Virus record (IMG/VR): IMGVR_UViG_3300045966_000079
Span: 1-22,084 of that record
Reading direction: 5' to 3' (one strand)
Length of the DNA stretch: 22,084 nt
Origin: a virus
Of this stretch, positions 1-21,307 are shown in pieces. Position 1 is the stretch's first letter. The number at the start of each line of letters is the position of its first letter. A model generated the notes under the pieces. The model did not search any database, had not been told where the DNA came from, and saw nothing but the letters and a program-made list of their open reading frames with translations. The translations under genes and the position numbers were made by a program.

Positions 1-750
1 CAAGTCTTGATTCTTTTGGTAGTTGATATATTCTAGTGCGTTCCCCTCGCCCACGCATCCAGCGATGAGCATAAGCGCGTCATCCAGCGTGCCGCCATGC
101 TGTTCGTTCACATCCATGAGACGCCCTGCCATGTCCCACGTACGCGGGCTAGGCCAAGGCTTGCCTAGCTCGCTTTCGTTCTTGGGTACCGCAAGCAACC
201 CGTGAGGCTTGGTACGGATATAGCCTGCGATACGGACGTGCGACTGTGAACGCTGGACGGCCCACGCAACCCATTCGTTAACGTCCACGGTCCAGGGGAT
301 ATGACAGAAACGGTTCGCCAGTGGCGCAGTTAGCTCACCGCCGCCAGCGCTGGTCGCGGGGGGGTTCATTGCCGCGATAATTCTGCAACTGTCAGGGAGC
401 TTGGTATCGCCAACCCACCGCTCATTGATGATCCGTAGTACGCCTGCTTGACACGCGGGTGGCGCGGTAGAGATTTCATCAAAGAATAGCAAGGTGGGTT
501 GATCGTTGTTGATAATGCGCTTGGCAAAGCCTGGCGGCGCGAGCGTTACGCCATCACTGGTCACGACTGGCAACCCACCAAGGTCAGTCACGTCGCGGAT
601 GCTTGCGATTACGGTTTCGCATCGCATTTGCAACGCGGGCGCTATCTCGCGCTCTATGCGGGCAGTCTTAGCCGTACCCGGTTCGCCAATGATAACGACT
701 GGCACGTTGGCGCGAATGGCGGTCATGAGTGGCGTGATTGACTTAGACAT
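1..750 (-). CDS. MoxR-type AAA+ ATPase (C-terminus beyond left edge)
   Basis: 250 codons are visible, with no stop before position 1, so the 3' end is missing. The start is an ATG preceded by GGAGA at good spacing. Walker A is GEPGTAKT (residues 22-29), Walker B is LLFFDE (87-92), sensor 1 is the Asn in AAMNPP (~129) and a likely arginine finger lies in LANRF (~147). This order, and the absence of a GAFTGA loop, fits the MoxR clade of AAA+ ATPases, which usually remodel protein complexes with a von Willebrand A (metal-ion-binding) partner. It overlaps the upstream gene by 8 nt and is the most distal visible gene of the leftward operon. Its role in the phage is unknown; a VWA partner gene just beyond the left edge would support a MoxR-VWA pair. 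The family call is firm, the function is not. Confidence 0.88.
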   Translation of the reverse strand, partial: MSKSITPLMTAIRANVPVVIIGEPGTAKTARIEREIAPALQMRCETVIASIRDVTDLGGLPVVTSDGVTLAPPGFAKRIINNDQPTLLFFDEISTAPPACQAGVLRIINERWVGDTKLPDSCRIIAAMNPPATSAGGGELTAPLANRFCHIPWTVDVNEWVAWAVQRSQSHVRIAGYIRTKPHGLLAVPKNESELGKPWPSPRTWDMAGRLMDVNEQHGGTLDDALMLIAGCVGEGNALEYINYQKNQDL

Positions 751-1027
751 TGGTTTCTCCTTTGGGTTTGCGCGGTTTGGGGTGTGCGTAGTTGCGGTAG
801 TGTTTCTTTTCAATGGTAGACATTGTATCGCTTTCTATGTGTTCGCCATACCAAAGCTTACACGCGGCCGAACACTTCCCGCCAAGGCGAAAATATCCGT
901 CTTTTGCATATGCGATATCACCTACCGCGAGTGCATCCGTCGCGCCAGTAATCACGATGCCCGCTAATTGATGGAGCGTAATTCTACGCTTGTTATATTC
1001 GCGGTGCCAGAGGTACATTCGGGTCAT
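743..1027 (-). CDS. Hypothetical protein, 94 aa
   Basis: The start is the ATG inside an ATGA overlap with the upstream gene, preceded by GAGGTG about 6 nt away. A longer reading from an upstream TTG is possible but would overlap more. The product is basic, has two Cys close together (KCSAAC) and a Lys/Arg/Pro-rich C-terminal tail. I recognise no family. Its ends overlap both neighbours, so it is almost certainly translated as part of the leftward operon. The hydrophilic composition suggests a cytoplasmic protein. Confidence 0.7.
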   Translation of the reverse strand: MTRMYLWHREYNKRRITLHQLAGIVITGATDALAVGDIAYAKDGYFRLGGKCSAACKLWYGEHIESDTMSTIEKKHYRNYAHPKPRKPKGETNV

Positions 1028-1311
1028 TGCGGACACCTCGGGCAACGATTACCTTTCATCGCACGAATTTTCAGCGTACAATTCCTCGTCATCATGATTT
1101 GATAGGGAAAGTACAACAAATGCTTGCGACGCAAATGCTTGCGACATCTGCTGGGCGTCCACCAGAAAGACTCATCAAATATCCGCCCATCTTGCGCTAT
1201 TTTATAACCCGCTAATAGAAGCATAGTCCAGGTGTTCTCATCAACTAGCTTACGGGTGTAACGCCCCTTACTGAAGATGTAATAGTGCAGGTGGTTGTCA
1301 GGAGCACGCAT
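1024..1311 (-). CDS. Hypothetical protein, 95 aa, with a tandem RKHL duplication
   Basis: The start ATG lies in a TAATG junction with the upstream gene, with GAGG about 8 nt upstream; a longer in-frame reading starting at 1353 would overlap the neighbour by 43 nt and is less likely. The protein is aromatic and basic. It carries a short internal duplication, CRKHL-RRKHL, that matches a 15-bp tandem repeat in the DNA, and ends in CPRCPQ. No family is recognised. The stop overlaps the next gene's ATG (ATGA). Confidence 0.68.
   Translation of the reverse strand: MRAPDNHLHYYIFSKGRYTRKLVDENTWTMLLLAGYKIAQDGRIFDESFWWTPSRCRKHLRRKHLLYFPYQIMMTRNCTLKIRAMKGNRCPRCPQ
1117..1146. repeat. 15-bp tandem duplication inside a gene
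   Basis: Two adjacent 15-bp units (1117-1131 and 1132-1146) are identical except at the last base. The duplication is in frame with the 95-aa leftward gene and repeats five residues (xRKHL). This looks like a recent slippage duplication. Confidence 0.85.
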
Positions 1312-1580
1312 TACGCTATCCTCGCCCGATACCGCCCATTCACCTTCCGCCAACCCGTACGCCCACGATTTTGCTCCTCGGCAATAATTGCCTGGATCAT
1401 GTCATGGTCTAGGCGGGCTTGATCTTCGGCGCGCCAGATAGCTCGCTCATCTTCGGTTGTCTCGCGTCCGCCCCATGCGCGATGATGGGTAGAGGATTGT
1501 GCCATCATACGCTCGTCTGACTTGCTCGTCTCTGCGAGCTTGCGCCTAAACCAATCGGCCGTGTGAGTGTAGCGTTTCAT
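1311..1580 (-). CDS. Hypothetical protein, 89 aa, charged and helical
   Basis: It starts at ATG with AAAGGGC upstream, 4 nt after the stop of the preceding gene, and ends in a TAATG junction with the next. The composition is strongly charged (E, D, R, K) with likely long helices in the middle (SKSDERMMAQ, EDQARLDHDMIQAIIAEE). No cysteine, membrane segment or known motif is visible. It is part of the leftward operon and its function is unknown. Confidence 0.68.
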   Translation of the reverse strand: MKRYTHTADWFRRKLAETSKSDERMMAQSSTHHRAWGGRETTEDERAIWRAEDQARLDHDMIQAIIAEEQNRGRTGWRKVNGRYRARIA

Positions 1581-1584
1581 TTGT

Positions 1585-1806
1585 TTAGCCCTTTATTGTT
1601 AGGGGTACCCAACCTTCTTTATAGACACCAGACCATATTACGTAGCGACCATCAGTAAGCTGCACGATAACAGGATGCTTCCATTTCTTCCAATTTCTCT
1701 CGCCTAAATAACCATCCCATTGACCAGGCACATACCGCATAACCCTACCCGATAGCATTGCGAGCGTAAACTCTTCCGCTGTTAACGTTGTCTTATGCCT
1801 TGCCAT
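1585..1806 (-). CDS. Hypothetical protein, 73 aa
   Basis: The start ATG has AGGCG upstream and overlaps the 3' end of the preceding 51-aa gene by 14 nt. The N-terminal part (TLTAEEFTLAMLSGRV) is helical. The remainder alternates Trp/Tyr and beta-prone residues (KHPVIVQLTDGRYVIWSG), suggesting a small alpha-beta fold. I do not recognise a family. It sits in the leftward operon, 4 nt before the next start. Confidence 0.65.
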   Translation of the reverse strand: MARHKTTLTAEEFTLAMLSGRVMRYVPGQWDGYLGERNWKKWKHPVIVQLTDGRYVIWSGVYKEGWVPLTIKG

Positions 1807-1948
1807 TGCGACGCCTGTCTAACAGCGTTTGAAAGCATTGCCTGCACATATCATGCTTTGGAATTATGCGTATGCGGTGGTCTGACCTACGCGCCAGACT
1901 CAGCGCGATAGCCTTGCGCCCGCATTCGCAATACTTGGGTTTATACAT
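1793..1948 (-). CDS. Zinc-knuckle micro-protein, 51 aa
   Basis: An open frame of 51 residues starts 6 nt after the stop of the preceding gene. The product begins MYKPKYCECGRKA and contains CxC near residue 7 and CxxC (MCRQC) near residue 35, a spacing that suits a single Zn2+ site; the rest is rich in Arg and Lys. The SD is weak, so initiation may rely on translational coupling. Basic charge plus four cysteines suggests nucleic-acid binding, but that is inference. It fills what would otherwise be a gap in the operon. Confidence 0.62.
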   Translation of the reverse strand: MYKPKYCECGRKAIALSLARRSDHRIRIIPKHDMCRQCFQTLLDRRRNGKA

Positions 1949-1954
1949 AGCAGT

Positions 1955-2107
1955 TTAATACGTAACGCGCCTCACACACTGCGCCCATACCATACCACCT
2001 TGTATCTCTTGGCGCTTGCACTCGGCGCGGTCGGTGTACTCGCGTGCGGATACCTCGTAGCATCCAGGACCACAGCTTGCGAGAATAAGGAGTATCCAGC
2101 TAATCAT
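1955..2107 (-). CDS. Small lipoprotein or secreted peptide, 50 aa
   Basis: The start ATG is in a TAATG junction with the upstream gene (AAGGTG as SD). The product begins MISWILLILASC, a short hydrophobic segment ending in LASC, which satisfies the lipobox pattern [LVI][ASTVI][GAS]C. Mature residues include two more cysteine pairs. The layout EYTDRAEC...WAQCV resembles small exported phage proteins with paired cysteines in a short alpha-beta unit. The signal is unusually short and has no positive n-region, so it may be an ordinary signal peptide or a membrane-tethered peptide instead. Its role is unknown; an outer-spanin function is possible but there is no adjacent inner spanin. Confidence 0.6.
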   Translation of the reverse strand: MISWILLILASCGPGCYEVSAREYTDRAECKRQEIQGGMVWAQCVRRVTY

Positions 2108-2289
2108 TACTTCACCTTGCCGCCATTCGGGCCGCACTCGCCGTCAATGTAAGCACGCCACCTATCAGGCAGGAAGTTAGCGTTCTGTGACTTACAGAAC
2201 GCCATGAGTACGCGAAGGTGAGCATCTGAAAAAGCTACTCCGCTAAGGCGAATAGCGTCCGCTAGGGCGATAAAGTGCTTCTTGCTCAT
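2107..2289 (-). CDS. Conserved phage protein, 60 aa, unknown function
   Basis: This is the first gene of the leftward operon. It has an ATG start with a G-rich SD (GGGGGGTAA) upstream. The sequence MSKKHFIALADAIR...ADA...FCKSQNANFLPDRWRAYIDGECGPNGG matches, from memory, a small protein widespread in tailed phages (the FIALADAIR / RW..YI.GECGPNGG pattern). Its function has not been defined to my knowledge. Two helices are likely. Being promoter-proximal, it would be the most strongly expressed gene of this operon. Confidence 0.78.
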   Translation of the reverse strand: MSKKHFIALADAIRLSGVAFSDAHLRVLMAFCKSQNANFLPDRWRAYIDGECGPNGGKVK

Positions 2290-2371: not shown

Positions 2372-2385
2372 TGTCATATTTGACA
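2372..2385. promoter_or_regulatory. Operator-like palindrome TGTCA-N4-TGACA (site 1)
   Basis: TGTCA-TATT-TGACA has perfect 5-bp arms. It lies about 65-78 bp upstream of the start predicted from the sigma-54-like promoter at 2317-2334. The same palindrome recurs as a cluster at 2914-2958. Confidence 0.6.
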
Positions 2386-2642: not shown

Positions 2643-2717
2643 ACGGGATTAGCTCAGCGGTAGAGCAAGCGACTGTTAATTGCTAGGTCCGTGGTTCGAG
2701 CCCACGATCCCGTGCCA
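2643..2717 (+). tRNA. tRNA-Asn (anticodon GTT)
   Basis: A full cloverleaf can be folded by eye. The acceptor stem is ACGGGAT/ATCCCGT, the D stem GCTC/GAGC, and the anticodon stem AGCGA/TTGCT (one G-U pair) with loop CTGTTAA and anticodon GTT at 2675-2677. The variable loop has 5 nt, the T stem is CGTGG/CCACG, and the T loop is TTCGAGC. The discriminator is G and the CCA end is encoded at 2715-2717. It is the only tRNA in the window and sits alone between two leftward transcription units. Encoded CCA suggests a host lineage in which tRNA genes carry CCA. It could supply extra Asn tRNA for virion genes, or be a remnant of host tRNA capture. Confidence 0.96.
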
Positions 2718-2722
2718 GTTAG

Positions 2723-2821
2723 TCAACGGCCCATCAGTATGATGTAGAAATGCACTGCTAGCCCGGTTAGTCCGCTGATGATGAGTATGGCCGCGATCAG
2801 GTTGACGATTGTCACTCTCAT
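2723..2821 (-). CDS. Single-span membrane peptide, 32 aa
   Basis: A 32-residue frame begins at ATG with a strong SD (TTGGAGGC, 7 nt upstream), MRVTIVNLIAAILIISGL...FYIILMGR. Almost the whole peptide is one hydrophobic helix with a positively charged residue at each end. A longer in-frame ORF exists, but its upstream part crosses the promoter and operator region and is unlikely to be coding. It lies about 15 nt downstream of the start predicted for a sigma-54-like promoter (2847-2863). Its function is unknown; small phage membrane peptides of this size act as holin regulators, exclusion factors or membrane effectors, but nothing here distinguishes these. Confidence 0.6.
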   Translation of the reverse strand: MRVTIVNLIAAILIISGLTGLAVHFYIILMGR

Positions 2822-2846
2822 TTGTTTGCCTCCAAGGATTATAGTA

Positions 2847-2863
2847 TACAATTCTAGTGCCAA
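2847..2863 (-). promoter_or_regulatory. Sigma-54-like promoter, leftward (copy 1)
   Basis: Read leftward, TTGGCACT-AGAA-TTGTA differs from TTGGCACG-N4-TTGCA at two positions (G to T after TGGCAC, and C to T in the -12 box), with spacing preserved. The predicted start is near 2836, just ahead of the SD of the 32-aa membrane peptide. It belongs to a three-copy repeat with the promoters at 3001-3018 and 3103-3120. Confidence 0.55.
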
Positions 2864-2913
2864 CGTTAACTCTAATGAAATCAATGAGTTACGCGCGTAT
2901 GCTGCGCGAGTTT

Positions 2914-2958
2914 GCCATATTTGACAGTCAATGTTGACAAAACGTGTCAGATTTGACA
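2914..2958. promoter_or_regulatory. Cluster of three TGTCA-N4-TGACA palindromes
   Basis: Three sites lie in 45 bp: GCCA-TATT-TGAC (2914-2925, one mismatch), GTCA-ATGT-TGAC (2927-2938) and TGTCA-GATT-TGACA (2945-2958). They lie about 78-121 bp upstream of the start predicted from the promoter at 2847-2863, the range typical of enhancer sites for sigma-54 activators. They could equally be repressor operators. Confidence 0.6.
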
Positions 2959-3000
2959 AATAATTTACACTTTACCCGAGCGGTGGGGTATATGTAGTGT

Positions 3001-3018
3001 ATGCAAGTATCGTGCCAA
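3001..3018 (-). promoter_or_regulatory. Sigma-54 consensus promoter, leftward (copy 2)
   Basis: Read leftward, TTGGCACG-ATAC-TTGCAT is a perfect match to the sigma-54 core YTGGCACG-N4-TTGCW. The predicted start is near 2991. It would transcribe through the TGTCA palindrome cluster toward the 32-aa gene and, without a terminator, antisense to the tRNA and into the left operon. Confidence 0.7.
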
Positions 3019-3081
3019 CGCAACCATGATGGGACGGGTGTCGCATACCCCCAATTCCTACCAAAAAGGTAGACATTGCGA

Positions 3082-3098
3082 CTGGCATGGGTCTTGTA
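3082..3098 (+). promoter_or_regulatory. Near-consensus sigma-54 promoter, rightward
   Basis: CTGGCATG-GGTC-TTGTA matches YTGGCAYG-N4-TTGCW except for C to T in the -12 element. The predicted start is near 3109. It faces copy 3 (3103-3120) head-on, so the two could compete. Confidence 0.4.
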
Positions 3099-3102
3099 GG
3101 GT

Positions 3103-3120
3103 ATGCAACCAGCGTGCCAA
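3103..3120 (-). promoter_or_regulatory. Sigma-54 consensus promoter, leftward (copy 3)
   Basis: Read leftward, TTGGCACG-CTGG-TTGCAT again matches the sigma-54 core perfectly. It is exactly 102 bp from copy 2 and shares two further bases (AC) downstream, so the repeated unit is GTATRCAA-N4-MGTGCCAA on the top strand. The predicted start is near 3093. Confidence 0.7.
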
Positions 3121-3133
3121 TGCCAACGTGACA

Positions 3134-3150
3134 CTGGCATGACATATGCA
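3134..3150 (+). promoter_or_regulatory. Near-consensus sigma-54 promoter for the rightward genes
   Basis: CTGGCATG-ACAT-ATGCA matches the -24/-12 consensus except for the first T of TTGCA. The predicted start is near 3161, giving a G-rich leader of about 75 nt before the first rightward gene (GTG at 3236). No sigma-70 promoter with an acceptable -10 was found in this leader. Confidence 0.42.
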
Positions 3151-5756: not shown

Positions 5757-5976
5757 CACCGGCTACATCAAGTGGGAGGCTGCGCGCATCGTTTGCATCA
5801 TTTGCGGCTTCCAGTACGAACGTATCGTTGCCCGTCGCCATGAGCGCATCCAAGCCGCAATGGACGCGCAGTTGCGTTGCAAAAGCGTAGAGTCGTTGTA
5901 CCTAACAAAAGATTATGAACCTGTACGACCTCACAGATATGACGCGCGACGAAATTCTGGAGAAAGCACAAACTGA
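5713..5976 (+). CDS. Zinc-ribbon protein, 87 aa
   Basis: SPCPRCSTGYIKW...RIVCIICGFQYER is a classical two-knuckle zinc ribbon (CPRC and CIIC, 17 residues apart between pairs), followed by a basic helix (RIVARRHERIQAAM) and a polar tail. The start is uncertain: TTG 5713 has a weak AGG upstream, GTG 5722 and TTG 5689 are alternatives, and all keep the zinc ribbon intact. It overlaps the preceding gene by 44 nt and the terminase by 62 nt. The ribbon plus Arg-rich helix suggests DNA or RNA binding; partnership with terminase is only inferred from position. Confidence 0.62.
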   Translation: MDAVYRIASPCPRCSTGYIKWEAARIVCIICGFQYERIVARRHERIQAAMDAQLRCKSVESLYLTKDYEPVRPHRYDARRNSGESTN

Positions 5977-7624
5977 TCCAGAGTGGTTTCGTCAAGCTAT
6001 CGCTGCTGTCAATGAAGCCATTACCGTTGATCGCCAAAATACACAACTGGCGTATTACACCACCGCAAACCCAGAATCAATCAAGGTTCACAAGTCACGC
6101 GCACGGGAAGTCGCAATCGTAGGCGGCAACCGCTCAAGCAAAACTGACACAATGCTCGCAGAGTTATCAATCCAGATGACGGGGCATATCCCGCTCAGTT
6201 TGCAAGGCGTGTATCCGCGAGAGAAGATTCGCGCGCCCATTCGCGCCCGTATCGTATGCAACTCGCTGACAGATACGCTTGAGCCTGTCATCAAACCCAA
6301 GCTGCGTTACGACCAATGGAACGGCATGGGCGAACCCAACCAAGGGCGCGGGCACTGGGGCTGGATTCCCCAGCATTGCTTGCAGGGCGGCACGTGGGAA
6401 AGCGCATACAGTGAGAAATACCGTACCCTTCGTGCAGCCGTAGATAGCCACTGGGTAGGCCAAGATGGCAGCGTCAACTCAATGCGAGGTTGGTCCTCAT
6501 GCCAATTTCTCAGCTATGACCAAGACCTCACCGCGTTTGCGGGTTCGTCAATGCACTTCGTCGGTCACGATGAGTTACCCCCAAATGACATCTATCGGGA
6601 AAATCGTATCCGCACTCTTGACGTACGCGGTCAGATTTATACAGCGTTCACGCCGCCAGACGAAATAGGCGCGTCAACCAAGGATGTTAGCTGGTTCTTT
6701 GATGAGGTATACGAGCGCGGGTTGGATGGGCCTACGCGCGACCCAAGCATTGAAACCATCGTCCTTCACACTGAACGCAATAAGTTCCTGTTGCCAGAAG
6801 ATGTCCGCGATATCGCAAGCAAGCTTACAGACGCCCAAAAGGAAGTGCGATTGTATGGGCGGTTTATTCACCTCAGCGGCGTTGTCTATTCGCTCTTTTG
6901 CGAGCGCCCTAACCTGTGGTGCTATAAATGTGAAAAGAAAATCCTTGCCACGGCGACCAACTGCCCCTTCTGTGGCGGCAATGATGTTGGCGATTTTAGC
7001 CACATCATTGAACCATTCATTGTGCCGTCCTCGTGGCCGGTTATCTTTGCCATTGACCCCCATCCTCGTAAGCCTGACATGATGGGCTGGTTTGCGATTG
7101 CGCCGAGCGATACCATCTTGCAGATTGGCGAATTGGAAATGGAAGGCACTGCCGACGACATCAAGCGTGCGGTTGACCAGTGGGAAGACGCCCACCGCAT
7201 TCGCCCCGTCAAGCGGTTGATGGACCCCAACATCGCCACTGAAACAAACGACAAGATGCGCCGGGGTTGGACCCTACGCACTGAGTATGACGAAGCGGGG
7301 TTGCGGTGCGATCTTGCGATTGATGAGGTTAATGCGGGTATTAGCGAAGTGCAAGGCTTGCTTAAGCCAGACCCATATTTGCGTGCGCCGCGTCTGCAAA
7401 TCTTCAACACGTGCAAGCGAACGATCCACGCATTTACGCGATGGTCATGGGACGAATACTCGCGCACGAGCGACCGTGAATTGAAGGAACGCCCGCGCGA
7501 TAGATTTAAGGACCCAATGGATGTTGTCCGTTACATGGCGATGGATCATCCGACTTACAGCCGCTATTCTATGGCTCCTGTTCGCACAGTGACGCGCGGT
7601 GCACGAGGCTATTATGGCCGATGA
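5915..7624 (+). CDS. terL: Terminase large subunit with a zinc-ribbon insert
   Basis: 569 aa. The ATPase half has Walker A GGNRSSKT (residues 70-77) and Walker B FVGHDE (215-220), followed by TAFTPPDE as a likely coupling motif. The nuclease half has the RNase H-like acidic residues in AIDPHP (~D381), LMDPNIA (~D437) and KDPMDVVRY (~D536). Between the halves lies WCYKCEKKILATATNCPFCGG, a four-cysteine zinc ribbon (336, 339, 350, 353). The enzyme translocates DNA into the prohead at the portal and cuts genome ends. The ATG at 5915 has only a weak SD; a second ATG at 5939 is possible. The portal follows downstream as expected. Confidence 0.95.
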   Translation: MNLYDLTDMTRDEILEKAQTDPEWFRQAIAAVNEAITVDRQNTQLAYYTTANPESIKVHKSRAREVAIVGGNRSSKTDTMLAELSIQMTGHIPLSLQGVYPREKIRAPIRARIVCNSLTDTLEPVIKPKLRYDQWNGMGEPNQGRGHWGWIPQHCLQGGTWESAYSEKYRTLRAAVDSHWVGQDGSVNSMRGWSSCQFLSYDQDLTAFAGSSMHFVGHDELPPNDIYRENRIRTLDVRGQIYTAFTPPDEIGASTKDVSWFFDEVYERGLDGPTRDPSIETIVLHTERNKFLLPEDVRDIASKLTDAQKEVRLYGRFIHLSGVVYSLFCERPNLWCYKCEKKILATATNCPFCGGNDVGDFSHIIEPFIVPSSWPVIFAIDPHPRKPDMMGWFAIAPSDTILQIGELEMEGTADDIKRAVDQWEDAHRIRPVKRLMDPNIATETNDKMRRGWTLRTEYDEAGLRCDLAIDEVNAGISEVQGLLKPDPYLRAPRLQIFNTCKRTIHAFTRWSWDEYSRTSDRELKERPRDRFKDPMDVVRYMAMDHPTYSRYSMAPVRTVTRGARGYYGR

Positions 7625-14306: not shown

Positions 14307-15248
14307 ATGAGTTTTCTCACCCAATACGGTTCGTTGTGGGGAGCGATCCCGCAGACGAGCGGGCGTGTGTTCTGGGTGTCGCCCAGTGCTACCTACACCG
14401 TGGAAGGGCGCTCGTACAGTGCCAGCGATGGCAATGATGGGCTGAGCCCTGAGCGTGCACTCCGCACGGTTGCCCAGGCCCACTCACTCTGCACGGCCAG
14501 CGTCAACGATGTTATCGTTCTACTCCCTGGCACGCACACCGTGACGGTTGCATCGCTCGCGCTAAGCAAGGCAGGCGTCACGATCATGGGCCTTCCTGGC
14601 GGCAGGGGCAATCCGTCGCGTCAGCGCACGTCGCTGACTACGTCGCTTGATGACCAGATTGCGAACGTCACCGCCGCCAATATTGAGATTGCGTATCTCA
14701 ACCTCATTCCGGTGACGACCAAAGCCGCTATCGACTATACCTCTGCGGCAGACGGGCTCTATATCCACGATTGCTCGATTGATATGTTCACTGCCGCCGC
14801 CAGCACGTCTACGCTTGGTATCGCAGCCACGACTGCGGCGCAGTCTCCGTCCGACATTCTCTTTGAAAACATCTACGCGATCAGCGACGGTGCGCAGGGT
14901 GCCGCGATTTCACTGGGCGACCCGGACGGTGCGGTTGTCCAGAATTGCGTGTTCCAGGTTCGCACGGGCACGTGGGCGCACGCTGTCAGCGTTGTCGGCG
15001 TTACTTCGCAAGCATCAGTGATTCGCAACTGTCACTTCAGCGCCCAATTCGGCACCATGACCGTTGGTATTCTTGGGTCTGACATGGCGTCTACGGGCCA
15101 GGTTGGCGTGTTCGATTGCCGATTTGACGAGAACGTGACTACGCCCATCGAAGACTTCGACGCTGAAGGTTGCAACATCGCTCAGAACTTCCGTGCTTCA
15201 GCAGATGGTAGTGCTGAAGGCGGTCTCTTGTGGTCGTCTACGACGTAA
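14307..15248 (+). CDS. Right-handed beta-helix virion protein, 313 aa
   Basis: ATG with a strong SD (AGAGGAGC, 6 nt upstream). After an N-terminal stretch (GRVFWVSPSATYTVEGRSYSAS), the motif DGNDGLSPERALRTVAQAHSLCTASVNDVIVLLPGTHTV is typical of phage parallel beta-helix proteins. It is followed by repeated coils with short beta strands and Asn/Cys stacks (VVQNCVFQVR, VIRNCHFSAQF, GVFDCRFDENV). This fold is common in tailspikes and head fibres that bind or cut host polysaccharides. No catalytic residues are assignable by eye. Its place directly before the glycan-modifying genes is notable. Confidence 0.72.
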   Translation: MSFLTQYGSLWGAIPQTSGRVFWVSPSATYTVEGRSYSASDGNDGLSPERALRTVAQAHSLCTASVNDVIVLLPGTHTVTVASLALSKAGVTIMGLPGGRGNPSRQRTSLTTSLDDQIANVTAANIEIAYLNLIPVTTKAAIDYTSAADGLYIHDCSIDMFTAAASTSTLGIAATTAAQSPSDILFENIYAISDGAQGAAISLGDPDGAVVQNCVFQVRTGTWAHAVSVVGVTSQASVIRNCHFSAQFGTMTVGILGSDMASTGQVGVFDCRFDENVTTPIEDFDAEGCNIAQNFRASADGSAEGGLLWSSTT

Positions 15249-15255
15249 TGGAGTT

Positions 15256-16035
15256 ATGCGCGAAGTAGATTCTGCCCATCCACCGGGACTCATCGGGGTC
15301 CCGTGTGGAGACCTCACTCGCTATACACGCACGCATCATGTTCTCAGCAACGTGTGTGTCCCCAAGGGCAGTGATCTACGTTACGGCGTTGGCGTCAATG
15401 TCGCCCACAACTGTAACAACCTTGTCAAAGAAATGCTTGAAGGCCCCTTTGAATGGCTCTGGATCATGGGCGACGATCATGGCTTTCAAGATTCGCTTCT
15501 ATTGTCTTTGTTGGACCGGGACGTTGATATTGTCGTTCCCATTGTTTCGCGTCGCGGTCCACCCTTTCAAACTGTGCTGTATCAATACGCCGCACTCGAC
15601 GGGTCAGCCTACATGACATTCTCGTGGGCCGATTTAAGCCGCAATCATCCGCAAGGTGGGTTGATTGCTGTAGACGCCGCAGGGTCAGGCGGGATGCTCA
15701 TTCGTCGCCATGTGCTTGAGACGATGACCGCACCTTGGTTCTCGTGGTCAGAGAAGATCAGTGAAGACGTTAACTTTTGCTTGAAGGCGCGCATCGCAGG
15801 CTTTGCAATCAATGCGGACCTTGACCAACGCATGACCCACCTTACGCCATGTGAACTTGAGCCATATCGTAATGACAAGGGTGAGTGGAACGTGGCAGCG
15901 GTCATTGGCGGGCGGCGCGTCTCACTGACCAACACCCTGCACGACGGCAAAGACTTACGCGAAATCACCTACGGTTACAAACCTGGTATGGAAGGCCGCA
16001 TGTGGGAAACATCTCCTACAGTGGAAGGGCTATGA
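15256..16035 (+). CDS. Glycosyltransferase-like protein (GT-A fold), 259 aa
   Basis: ATG with GGAG only 2 nt upstream; no better start is visible. [13 protein letters not shown] (GDDH at residues 72-75) is a DxD-type metal and nucleotide-sugar site, followed by [27 protein letters not shown] and [15 protein letters not shown]...[13 protein letters not shown], in the order seen in GT-A/GT2-like enzymes. It is paralogous to the protein at 20600-21307. It would transfer a sugar from a nucleotide donor; the acceptor could be a virion protein or host glycan. Its stop overlaps the acyltransferase ATG (ATGA), so the two are probably co-translated. Confidence 0.78.
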
Positions 16036-16517
16036 TCCACCTTACAGCGCAAATCCACGAAACTGCTGTCATCCCTGAAAACGTAGCCATCTGGCAATAC
16101 GCAAACATCATGAACGGCGTTGTCCTTGGAGAAGGCGTCAGCATTGGGGGCTCAAGCGAGATTGGGAGATTCAGCTTCATCGGCGCATGGACCCGCATCG
16201 GATATGGATGCTTCCTACCCTCTCGTAGCCGTATTGGTAGCCGCGTGTTCATTGGCCCTCATGTCACATTTTGTGATGACAAATATCCCGTTGTGGGCAA
16301 CCCACACTATGTCGGAAAGCCGCCGATTGTTGAAGACGGTGCTTCCATTGGAGCCGGGGCCGTAATACTGCCCGGTATTCGCATCGGCAAATACGCAATG
16401 GTCGGCGCGGGTGCCGTCGTCACCAAAGATGTCCCCGACGACACCACCGTCATTGGCAACCCTGCACAACCACTTTACCGTGCCGCCAACGTCAAGGGCG
16501 AGGAGAATATTTCGTGA
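16032..16517 (+). CDS. Left-handed beta-helix (hexapeptide) acyltransferase, 161 aa
   Basis: It starts in an ATGA overlap with GGAAGG upstream. Hexapeptide repeats run through most of the protein ([80 protein letters not shown]), the hallmark of trimeric acetyl-CoA-dependent sugar O- or N-acetyltransferases of the WbbJ/NeuD/VatD type. A His candidate for catalysis is in FIGPHVTF. The VIGNPAQ end is typical of the class. Together with the preceding glycosyltransferase it suggests synthesis or modification of an acetylated glycan. Confidence 0.88.
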
Positions 16518-20289: not shown

Positions 20290-20600
20290 AAGGCCGATGG
20301 GGCTACAAACCAACCACCCGTCGCTTATGGTCCGTACCCGGCATTGGCCAACGCGGCAATCGCACGATGGGAAATCCGTTCCTCACGCTTGGTTTGGAGT
20401 GGTGCGCGCGGTGCAAGCAAGAGATGGATTGCGACACTGAAGCCAGCCATCGTAACGGCATGTATGTCTTCAAACGCTGGTGCCGTAGATGCGGGCTCGT
20501 TGTCAAGAGCGGTGTGTATCGCGCGCAAATCGTGAGCGACACCAACCTTGTCCCTATGGCCCTTGAGTGGGTCAATAAACCAGAGAAGGATCGACGCTAA
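20286..20600 (+). CDS. Zinc-ribbon protein, 104 aa
   Basis: ATGA overlap start. WCARCKQEMDC and RWCRRCGLV provide the zinc ligands (spacing ~30 residues). The N-terminus is basic (MKGRWGYKPTTRRLW) and the C-terminus is alpha-helical. It ends in a TAATG junction with the second glycosyltransferase. It is the only zinc-ribbon protein in the distal virion block, perhaps a regulator or an assembly factor; function unknown. Confidence 0.65.
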   Translation: MKGRWGYKPTTRRLWSVPGIGQRGNRTMGNPFLTLGLEWCARCKQEMDCDTEASHRNGMYVFKRWCRRCGLVVKSGVYRAQIVSDTNLVPMALEWVNKPEKDRR

Positions 20601-21307
20601 TGGCGATCATGTCGCCCGGCACAATCGTTGTAGCCAGTAGCGACCTTGCACGGTATCCGGGGTTCACTGTCAGCCTCTTACACTTGCAACGCCCGCCCGG
20701 TACAGAATGGCGCTTCCAGGTCGGCTTGAATGTCGCCGCGTCGCTGAACCAAGGGATTCAAACCATGGTAGGCGAGTGGGTGTGGATCATGGGCGATGAC
20801 CATATTTTGCCGCCCGACACGCTCATGCGTTTGCTCGCGCATAACAAAGACGTAATCGTCCCTGTATGCGTGCGCCGCAAGCCGCCATTCATTCCGGTGA
20901 TCTTCAAGAAGCCTGAAGAGGGCACGCCTGAATGGCGCTTTCCGCCGTGGAAGTGGACGGAGCTACCCAAGGAAGGCGGCGTTCACAAGATATGGGTCGC
21001 CGGCAGTGCGGGCATGTTGATTCGCAGACGTGTGCTTGAAGACATGCCGTTTCCGTGGTTTGAAGTTGGCCAACAAGATTCTCAACAGTTGAACGAAGAC
21101 TCATACTTTTGTACCAAGCTACAAAAGATGGGAGTTGACATACACGTAGACCTCGACACATGGATTGGCCATGTGACCCCGTGCGTGCTCTGGCCCGCGC
21201 GTACGAAGGATGGCTCGTGGACTGTCGAAGTCCGTTTTGACGGACAAATGAAAATGCAGCTACCTCCGGGGGCTGCCGAAAAGGGCTGGGACAATTATCC
21301 CGGATAA
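20600..21307 (+). CDS. Second glycosyltransferase-like protein (GT-A fold), 235 aa
   Basis: TAATG junction, AAGGA upstream. It shares with the protein at 15256-16035 the motifs WIMGDDH (residues 62-68), DVIVPVCVRRKPPF, AGSAGMLIRRRVLEDM, PWF and NEDSYFCTKL...DLDTWIGHVTPC in the same order, so the two are paralogues. The DDH motif is the expected metal and nucleotide-sugar site. It lacks a recognisable membrane segment, so it probably acts in the cytoplasm on virion proteins or sugar intermediates. Its separation from copy 1 by about 4.6 kb of adhesin-like genes suggests each may serve a different acceptor. Confidence 0.78.
   Translation: MAIMSPGTIVVASSDLARYPGFTVSLLHLQRPPGTEWRFQVGLNVAASLNQGIQTMVGEWVWIMGDDHILPPDTLMRLLAHNKDVIVPVCVRRKPPFIPVIFKKPEEGTPEWRFPPWKWTELPKEGGVHKIWVAGSAGMLIRRRVLEDMPFPWFEVGQQDSQQLNEDSYFCTKLQKMGVDIHVDLDTWIGHVTPCVLWPARTKDGSWTVEVRFDGQMKMQLPPGAAEKGWDNYPG

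Follow-up and report, generated by a model that had tools for sequence, protein, structure and literature searches.

Introduction

Promoters served by sigma-54 (RpoN) are not transcribed before an activator, working at the expense of ATP, has sensed a cue, for instance nitrogen, membrane stress or motility. The activator-bound enhancers lie 80-150 bp upstream, an IHF site between enhancer and promoter is frequent, without being obligatory, and transcription starts ~12 nt beyond the -12 box. The locus here described resembles bacterial promoters of this class, especially that of E. coli pspA, in its TTGGCAC-N5-TTGCA/TTGTA boxes with exact spacing, in an IHF match and dyads placed upstream at the usual distances, and in a short leader to the Shine-Dalgarno (SD) sequence. 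Unlike them, its putative sites belong to the control region of a phage, are arranged in tandem and have neighbouring sites that face the other way.

Among phages, protein P7 of phage Xp10 is reported to inhibit sigma-70 polymerase as well as sigma-54 polymerase (PMC5053324). P7 has in common with our locus a phage link to the host sigma-54 polymerase, yet it is an inhibitor protein, whereas the link proposed here would act in cis, within the phage DNA (PMC5053324). PMC6282759, considered as a precedent for phage sigma-54 arrays, was set aside, as it concerns host flagellar genes. Vibrio phage CHOED (L223) shares with the window opposed gene blocks and a tRNA-Asn upstream of the terminase large subunit gene (terL) in the rightward block, but differs in having no perfect sigma-54 site and in encoding an RNA polymerase; it also carries a tRNA-Ser upstream of terL. 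Sigma-54 promoters are known as such; the open literature yielded no account of phage arrays of them, nor of their tandem use at phage switches across uncultivated lineages (subscription journals were outside the scope).

Genome organization

The window, that is, the whole stretch of DNA analysed, is a linear virus record of 22 kb. Its rightward block holds the terL, portal and major head protein genes, terL being the anchor gene of this packaging block. A control region of ~1 kb, in which an Rfam scan detected nothing besides the tRNA, separates it from a leftward block of small genes, presumed to be early genes. The first gene after the P1 site encodes a 32-aa protein without match in PHROG. 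Features are collected in Table 1.

Table 1. Features of the window (a dot-free empty strand cell marks elements given without orientation).
Feature	Position	Strand	Sequence	Basis or remark
Leftward small-gene block, MoxR-like AAA ATPase at its end	1..2289	-		gene calls, profile matches
Fourth TGTCA-N4-TGACA dyad	2372..2385		TGTCATATTTGACA	perfect; upstream of repeat unit 2445-2486
tRNA-Asn (GTT)	2643..2717	+		within control region
32-aa hydrophobic, membrane-type ORF	2723..2821	-	MRVTIVNLIAAILIISGLTGLAVHFYIILMGR	sequence; GGAGG SD
P1, sigma-54-type promoter (putative)	2847..2863	-	TTGGCACTAGAATTGTA	predicted +1 at 2836
IHF consensus match	2879..2891	+	AATCAATGAGTTA	centre -49 from P1 predicted start
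Three TGTCA-N4-TGACA dyads (2913, 2926, 2945)	2913..2958			one perfect, two with one mismatch
P2, perfect sigma-54 site	3002..3018	-	TTGGCACGATACTTGCA	predicted +1 at 2991
Near-match	3082..3098	+	CTGGCATGGGTCTTGTA	one mismatch to YTGGCAYRN4TTGCW
P3, perfect sigma-54 site	3104..3120	-	TTGGCACGCTGGTTGCA	predicted +1 at 3093
Dyad	3120..3140		ATGCCAACGTGACACTGGCAT	centre -139 from P2 predicted start
Near-match	3134..3150	+	CTGGCATGACATATGCA	one mismatch to YTGGCAYRN4TTGCW
terL	5915..7624	+		weak PHROG terminase matches; tblastn to annotated terminases

Farther along the rightward strand, two proteins (15193-16035 and 20600-21307) have a stretch in common, WIMGDDH..VIVPV/IVPI, and resemble paralogous glycosyltransferase-type proteins, with a phrog_1574 assignment for the first; an acyltransferase-like ORF (15885-16517) is found near them.

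Sigma-54-type sites in the control region

The original prediction had described a 20-bp motif, GTATRCAAN4MGTGCCAA, and scanning located it with zero mismatches at 2844-2863, 2999-3018 and 3101-3120 and nowhere else in the window. Read leftward, the copies at 2999 and 3101 are indeed perfect -24/-12 sites with exact spacing and, as had been judged by eye, YTGGCACGN4TTGCW is matched perfectly nowhere else in the whole record. The copy at 2844 has two mismatches to that pattern, as originally reported. In terms of the broader boxes (YTGGCAYR and TTGCW at exact spacing), P2 and P3 are perfect and P1 carries TTGTA; its form, TTGGCAC-N5-TTGTA, is that of the E. coli pspA promoter (TTGGCACGCAAATTGTA), and the P1 mismatch is no disqualifier because pspA also has TTGTA instead of TTGCA. 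Leftward sites in the window are limited to these three, spaced 102 and 155 bp. The two rightward near-matches of Table 1 had been overlooked earlier. Beyond the core, the motif copies have ATAC in common and, in part, CTACA.

The shuffling check that had been called for was performed with 1000 dinucleotide-preserving shuffles of the window and the pattern YTGGCAYRN4TTGCW. At least one perfect match appeared in 24 shuffles and two perfect matches in none, so that the group of sites exceeds chance, with the reservation that the three motif copies probably arose from each other by duplication and are therefore not independent draws in this comparison. Five sites with at most two mismatches are observed within 300 bp, an arrangement given by 0/1000 shuffles (the maximum, reached in 2 of them, was 4). 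Better matches spread through coding DNA, which would have spoken against the prediction, were not seen in scans of the window.

Elements around the predicted promoters

Predicted starts assume +1 to lie 12 nt past the -12 box. For P1 the leader is then 15 nt long and includes a good SD, GGAGG, ahead of the ATG of the 32-aa ORF, which bears out the earlier remark that this copy lies just before a small gene with a strong SD. No SD-bearing start occurs within 250 nt of P3, and a sigma-70 scan of the control region returned no leftward promoter.

Only two perfect WATCAAN4TTR matches exist in the window, one of them being the IHF match of Table 1, and a 13-mer identical to it also lies upstream of the site in relative L045. 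The dyads at 2913-2926, 2926-2939 and 2945-2958 fall at -83, -96 and -115 from the P1 predicted start, a position that makes them candidate activator sites for P1, and the dyad at 3120..3140 is, likewise by its position, a candidate enhancer. None of the dyads at P1 and P2 matched a known activator consensus, and they may belong to other promoters. Those at 2913..2958 could instead serve a rightward repeat unit adjacent to them. This 42-nt repeat, AATAATTTACA..TATATG, is present at 2445-2486 and 2958-2999 (74% identical) with a dyad upstream of each unit, and the two units are possibly a rightward promoter pair, the first ahead of the tRNA-Asn and the second ahead of the late block. All in all, four TGTCA-N4-TGACA dyads, two of them perfect, are found in the control region as putative operator or activator sites of some regulator.

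Recurrence in relatives

Two contigs are nearly identical to the window and belong to the same species. Searches with TerL yielded 80 loci, 59 after dereplication, the relatives being thus picked by TerL alone. In these 59 loci, perfect sites number 13 on the upstream side of terL and 0 on the downstream side, against averages of 0 and 0.23 for permuted patterns; with one mismatch allowed, the figures are 28 upstream vs 1 downstream, against ~3 and ~7. Of the perfect upstream sites, 11 (11/13) face away from terL, and a single locus (L048) accounts for six of the 13, one of these six inside an ORF. Another 33 loci without overlap, added later, gave one perfect upstream site, facing terL, and no one-mismatch excess. 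Perfect sites upstream of terL are carried by eight relatives.

Three phages, L053, L067 and L055 (TerL 74-80% identical), share two orthologous sites in which both boxes are preserved, TGGCA and CTTGC being constant while spacer bases vary. The divergent region of a 60% relative (G1) contains CTGGCACCAGGATTGCT, which also fits a sigma-70 promoter with extended -10 (TTGACG-N17-TATACA), and a 63% relative (G2) has no sigma-54 site. IHF matches in the family loci occur at 2.53/kb just upstream of sites vs 0.06/kb elsewhere, a ~40-fold difference. The conservation on which the original prediction had staked itself was seen, if patchily: place and, mostly, direction are kept, but only in a minority of relatives, among loci many of which stop short of the control region. 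Sigma-54 sites recur in several lineages, yet they are no family hallmark.

Tandem sites in other viral contigs

The tandem sigma-54 pattern was retrieved from at least 120 viral contig stretches and the reversed pattern, a control one degenerate base shorter, from 1. Phage genes were present in several of the tandem-pattern contigs tested for them. Twenty contigs, selected for carrying the tandem pattern, hold between 2 and 13 perfect sites apiece, for the most part within one region, and 0 reversed-pattern matches. No perfect site is contained in twelve hand-picked phage records from GenBank, 1.7 Mb in total, which do not amount to a survey; CHOED, Pasto and MW202795, a metagenome-derived record, are among them.

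In the tandem-site contigs the free positions agree with the extended sigma-54 consensus. Among 106 one-mismatch neighbours, the GG is changed in 1 and the TG of TTGC in 0, the changes falling on Y, the first T or W in 71. IHF matches in the array loci number 23 upstream of sites vs 1 downstream, and the gene next to a site is codirectional in 216 cases vs 90, as judged with a simple ORF caller. Within 150 nt of array sites, an SD plus start codon was not clearly more frequent than in a mirror control. Array sites in these contigs are spaced 25-29 bp and, in L116, L127 and L143, packed in both directions.

Interpretation and alternatives

Considering (i) the boxes, (ii) the pspA form of P1, (iii) its 15-nt leader, (iv) the IHF match and dyads, and (v) the relatives, the sigma-54 interpretation is supported by computation, and the leftward sites are probably real host sigma-54 promoters for the leftward, presumed early genes. 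The same sites might bind the sigma-54 holoenzyme mainly as a sink or roadblock, titrating polymerase or parking closed complexes between operons; the close packing of array sites elsewhere, their occurrence in both directions in L116, L127 and L143, the perfect sites of L233 just behind opposite-strand genes, and perfect array sites that are not clearly closer to gene starts than in the mirror control would fit such a role. It appears improbable for this locus, given the orientation bias toward codirectional genes and away from terL, the IHF matches upstream and not downstream, the promoter-SD-ATG geometry of P1, and a window with three leftward sites only, at the distances stated above. The array spacing seen elsewhere leaves room for loading or titrating polymerase as a second role.

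It is similarly unlikely that the motif is the site of another protein (a phage regulator, a replication initiator or the terminase small subunit) with a coincidental sigma-54 likeness, an idea prompted by the resemblance of the window copies beyond the sigma-54 core, by the sites that precede terL in several lineages and by the iteron-like arrays. A phage-specific motif should drift between lineages, whereas mismatch tolerance and free flanks here follow sigma-54 across lineages of differing G+C content, and the IHF enrichment is confined to the upstream side. Chance likeness, or ordinary sigma-70 promoters, spread via local duplication, would find a foothold in the TATAAT within P1 (2838-2843), in the double fit of the G1 site and in the frequency with which shuffles produce one perfect site, copyable by duplication. 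Against this, the distance between TTGGCA and TATAAT in P1, 14 bp, is too short for sigma-70, the scan passed no leftward sigma-70 site, and permuted patterns fail to give perfect sites upstream of terL as found in the eight relatives, which makes such an origin highly improbable.

Returning to the promoter reading, computation establishes the sites, their non-randomness, their presence in some relatives as well, the layout and the excess of IHF matches; from these we infer sigma-54 binding, an activator, its cue, the transcripts and the early timing as follows. The switch region between the packaging/head genes and the leftward small-gene block would house P1-P3 (sites 2847, 3002 and 3104) as promoters for the host's sigma-54 RNA polymerase, which would form inactive closed complexes on them. 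Opening would be the task of a host enhancer-binding activator on the upstream dyads, delivered by an IHF bend; P1 would then give a transcript of the 32-aa membrane-type ORF with the 15-nt leader, P2 and P3 the same transcript with longer leaders, and leftward expression would track the signal sensed by the activator.

The sites, together with their recurrence at the same place in some relatives, suggest that these phages couple gene expression to the physiological state of the host. If so, infection would be tied to host physiology at the level of the promoter itself, and host prediction would be aided, since hosts must have rpoN; a pspA-like promoter could, speculatively, let infection stress feed phage expression. 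With some reserve, we lean towards many uncultivated tailed-phage lineages having switch-region sigma-54 arrays with IHF sites and host-activator-gated genes, the arrays in some of them perhaps loading or sequestering polymerase. The pattern in viral contigs makes sigma-54 dependence testable across many lineages.

Sigma-54 machinery and host

A phage-encoded sigma-54 or enhancer-binding activator was sought and not found. PF04552 (sigma-54) had no match in 37 family records, which are fragments, and the sole PF00158 match in them is partial and falls on the window's MoxR-like AAA_5 ATPase, which is without GAFTGA. Nor was there a match in 50 array records, also fragments. Prophage relatives sought in bacterial genomes for host assignment were none of them confirmed, and the host might be one without sigma-54, which is counted against the promoter reading, as are the patchy recurrence in relatives (with no site in G2), the double fit of the G1 site, the SD comparison for array sites and the lack of an SD-bearing start near P3.

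Other site arrangements

In L116, L127, L143, L161, L132 and L168, sigma-54 sites of the plus and minus strands alternate in arrays, the period being ~47 bp; where there is annotation (L143), terminase and portal genes lie downstream. On a 57.7-kb contig (L098, L233), a sigma-54-type site stands just before an SD and ATG in most intergenic gaps, with a perfect opposite-strand site just behind the preceding gene, and an element, TCCGGATAGG, ~100 bp upstream of the sites is a possible enhancer.
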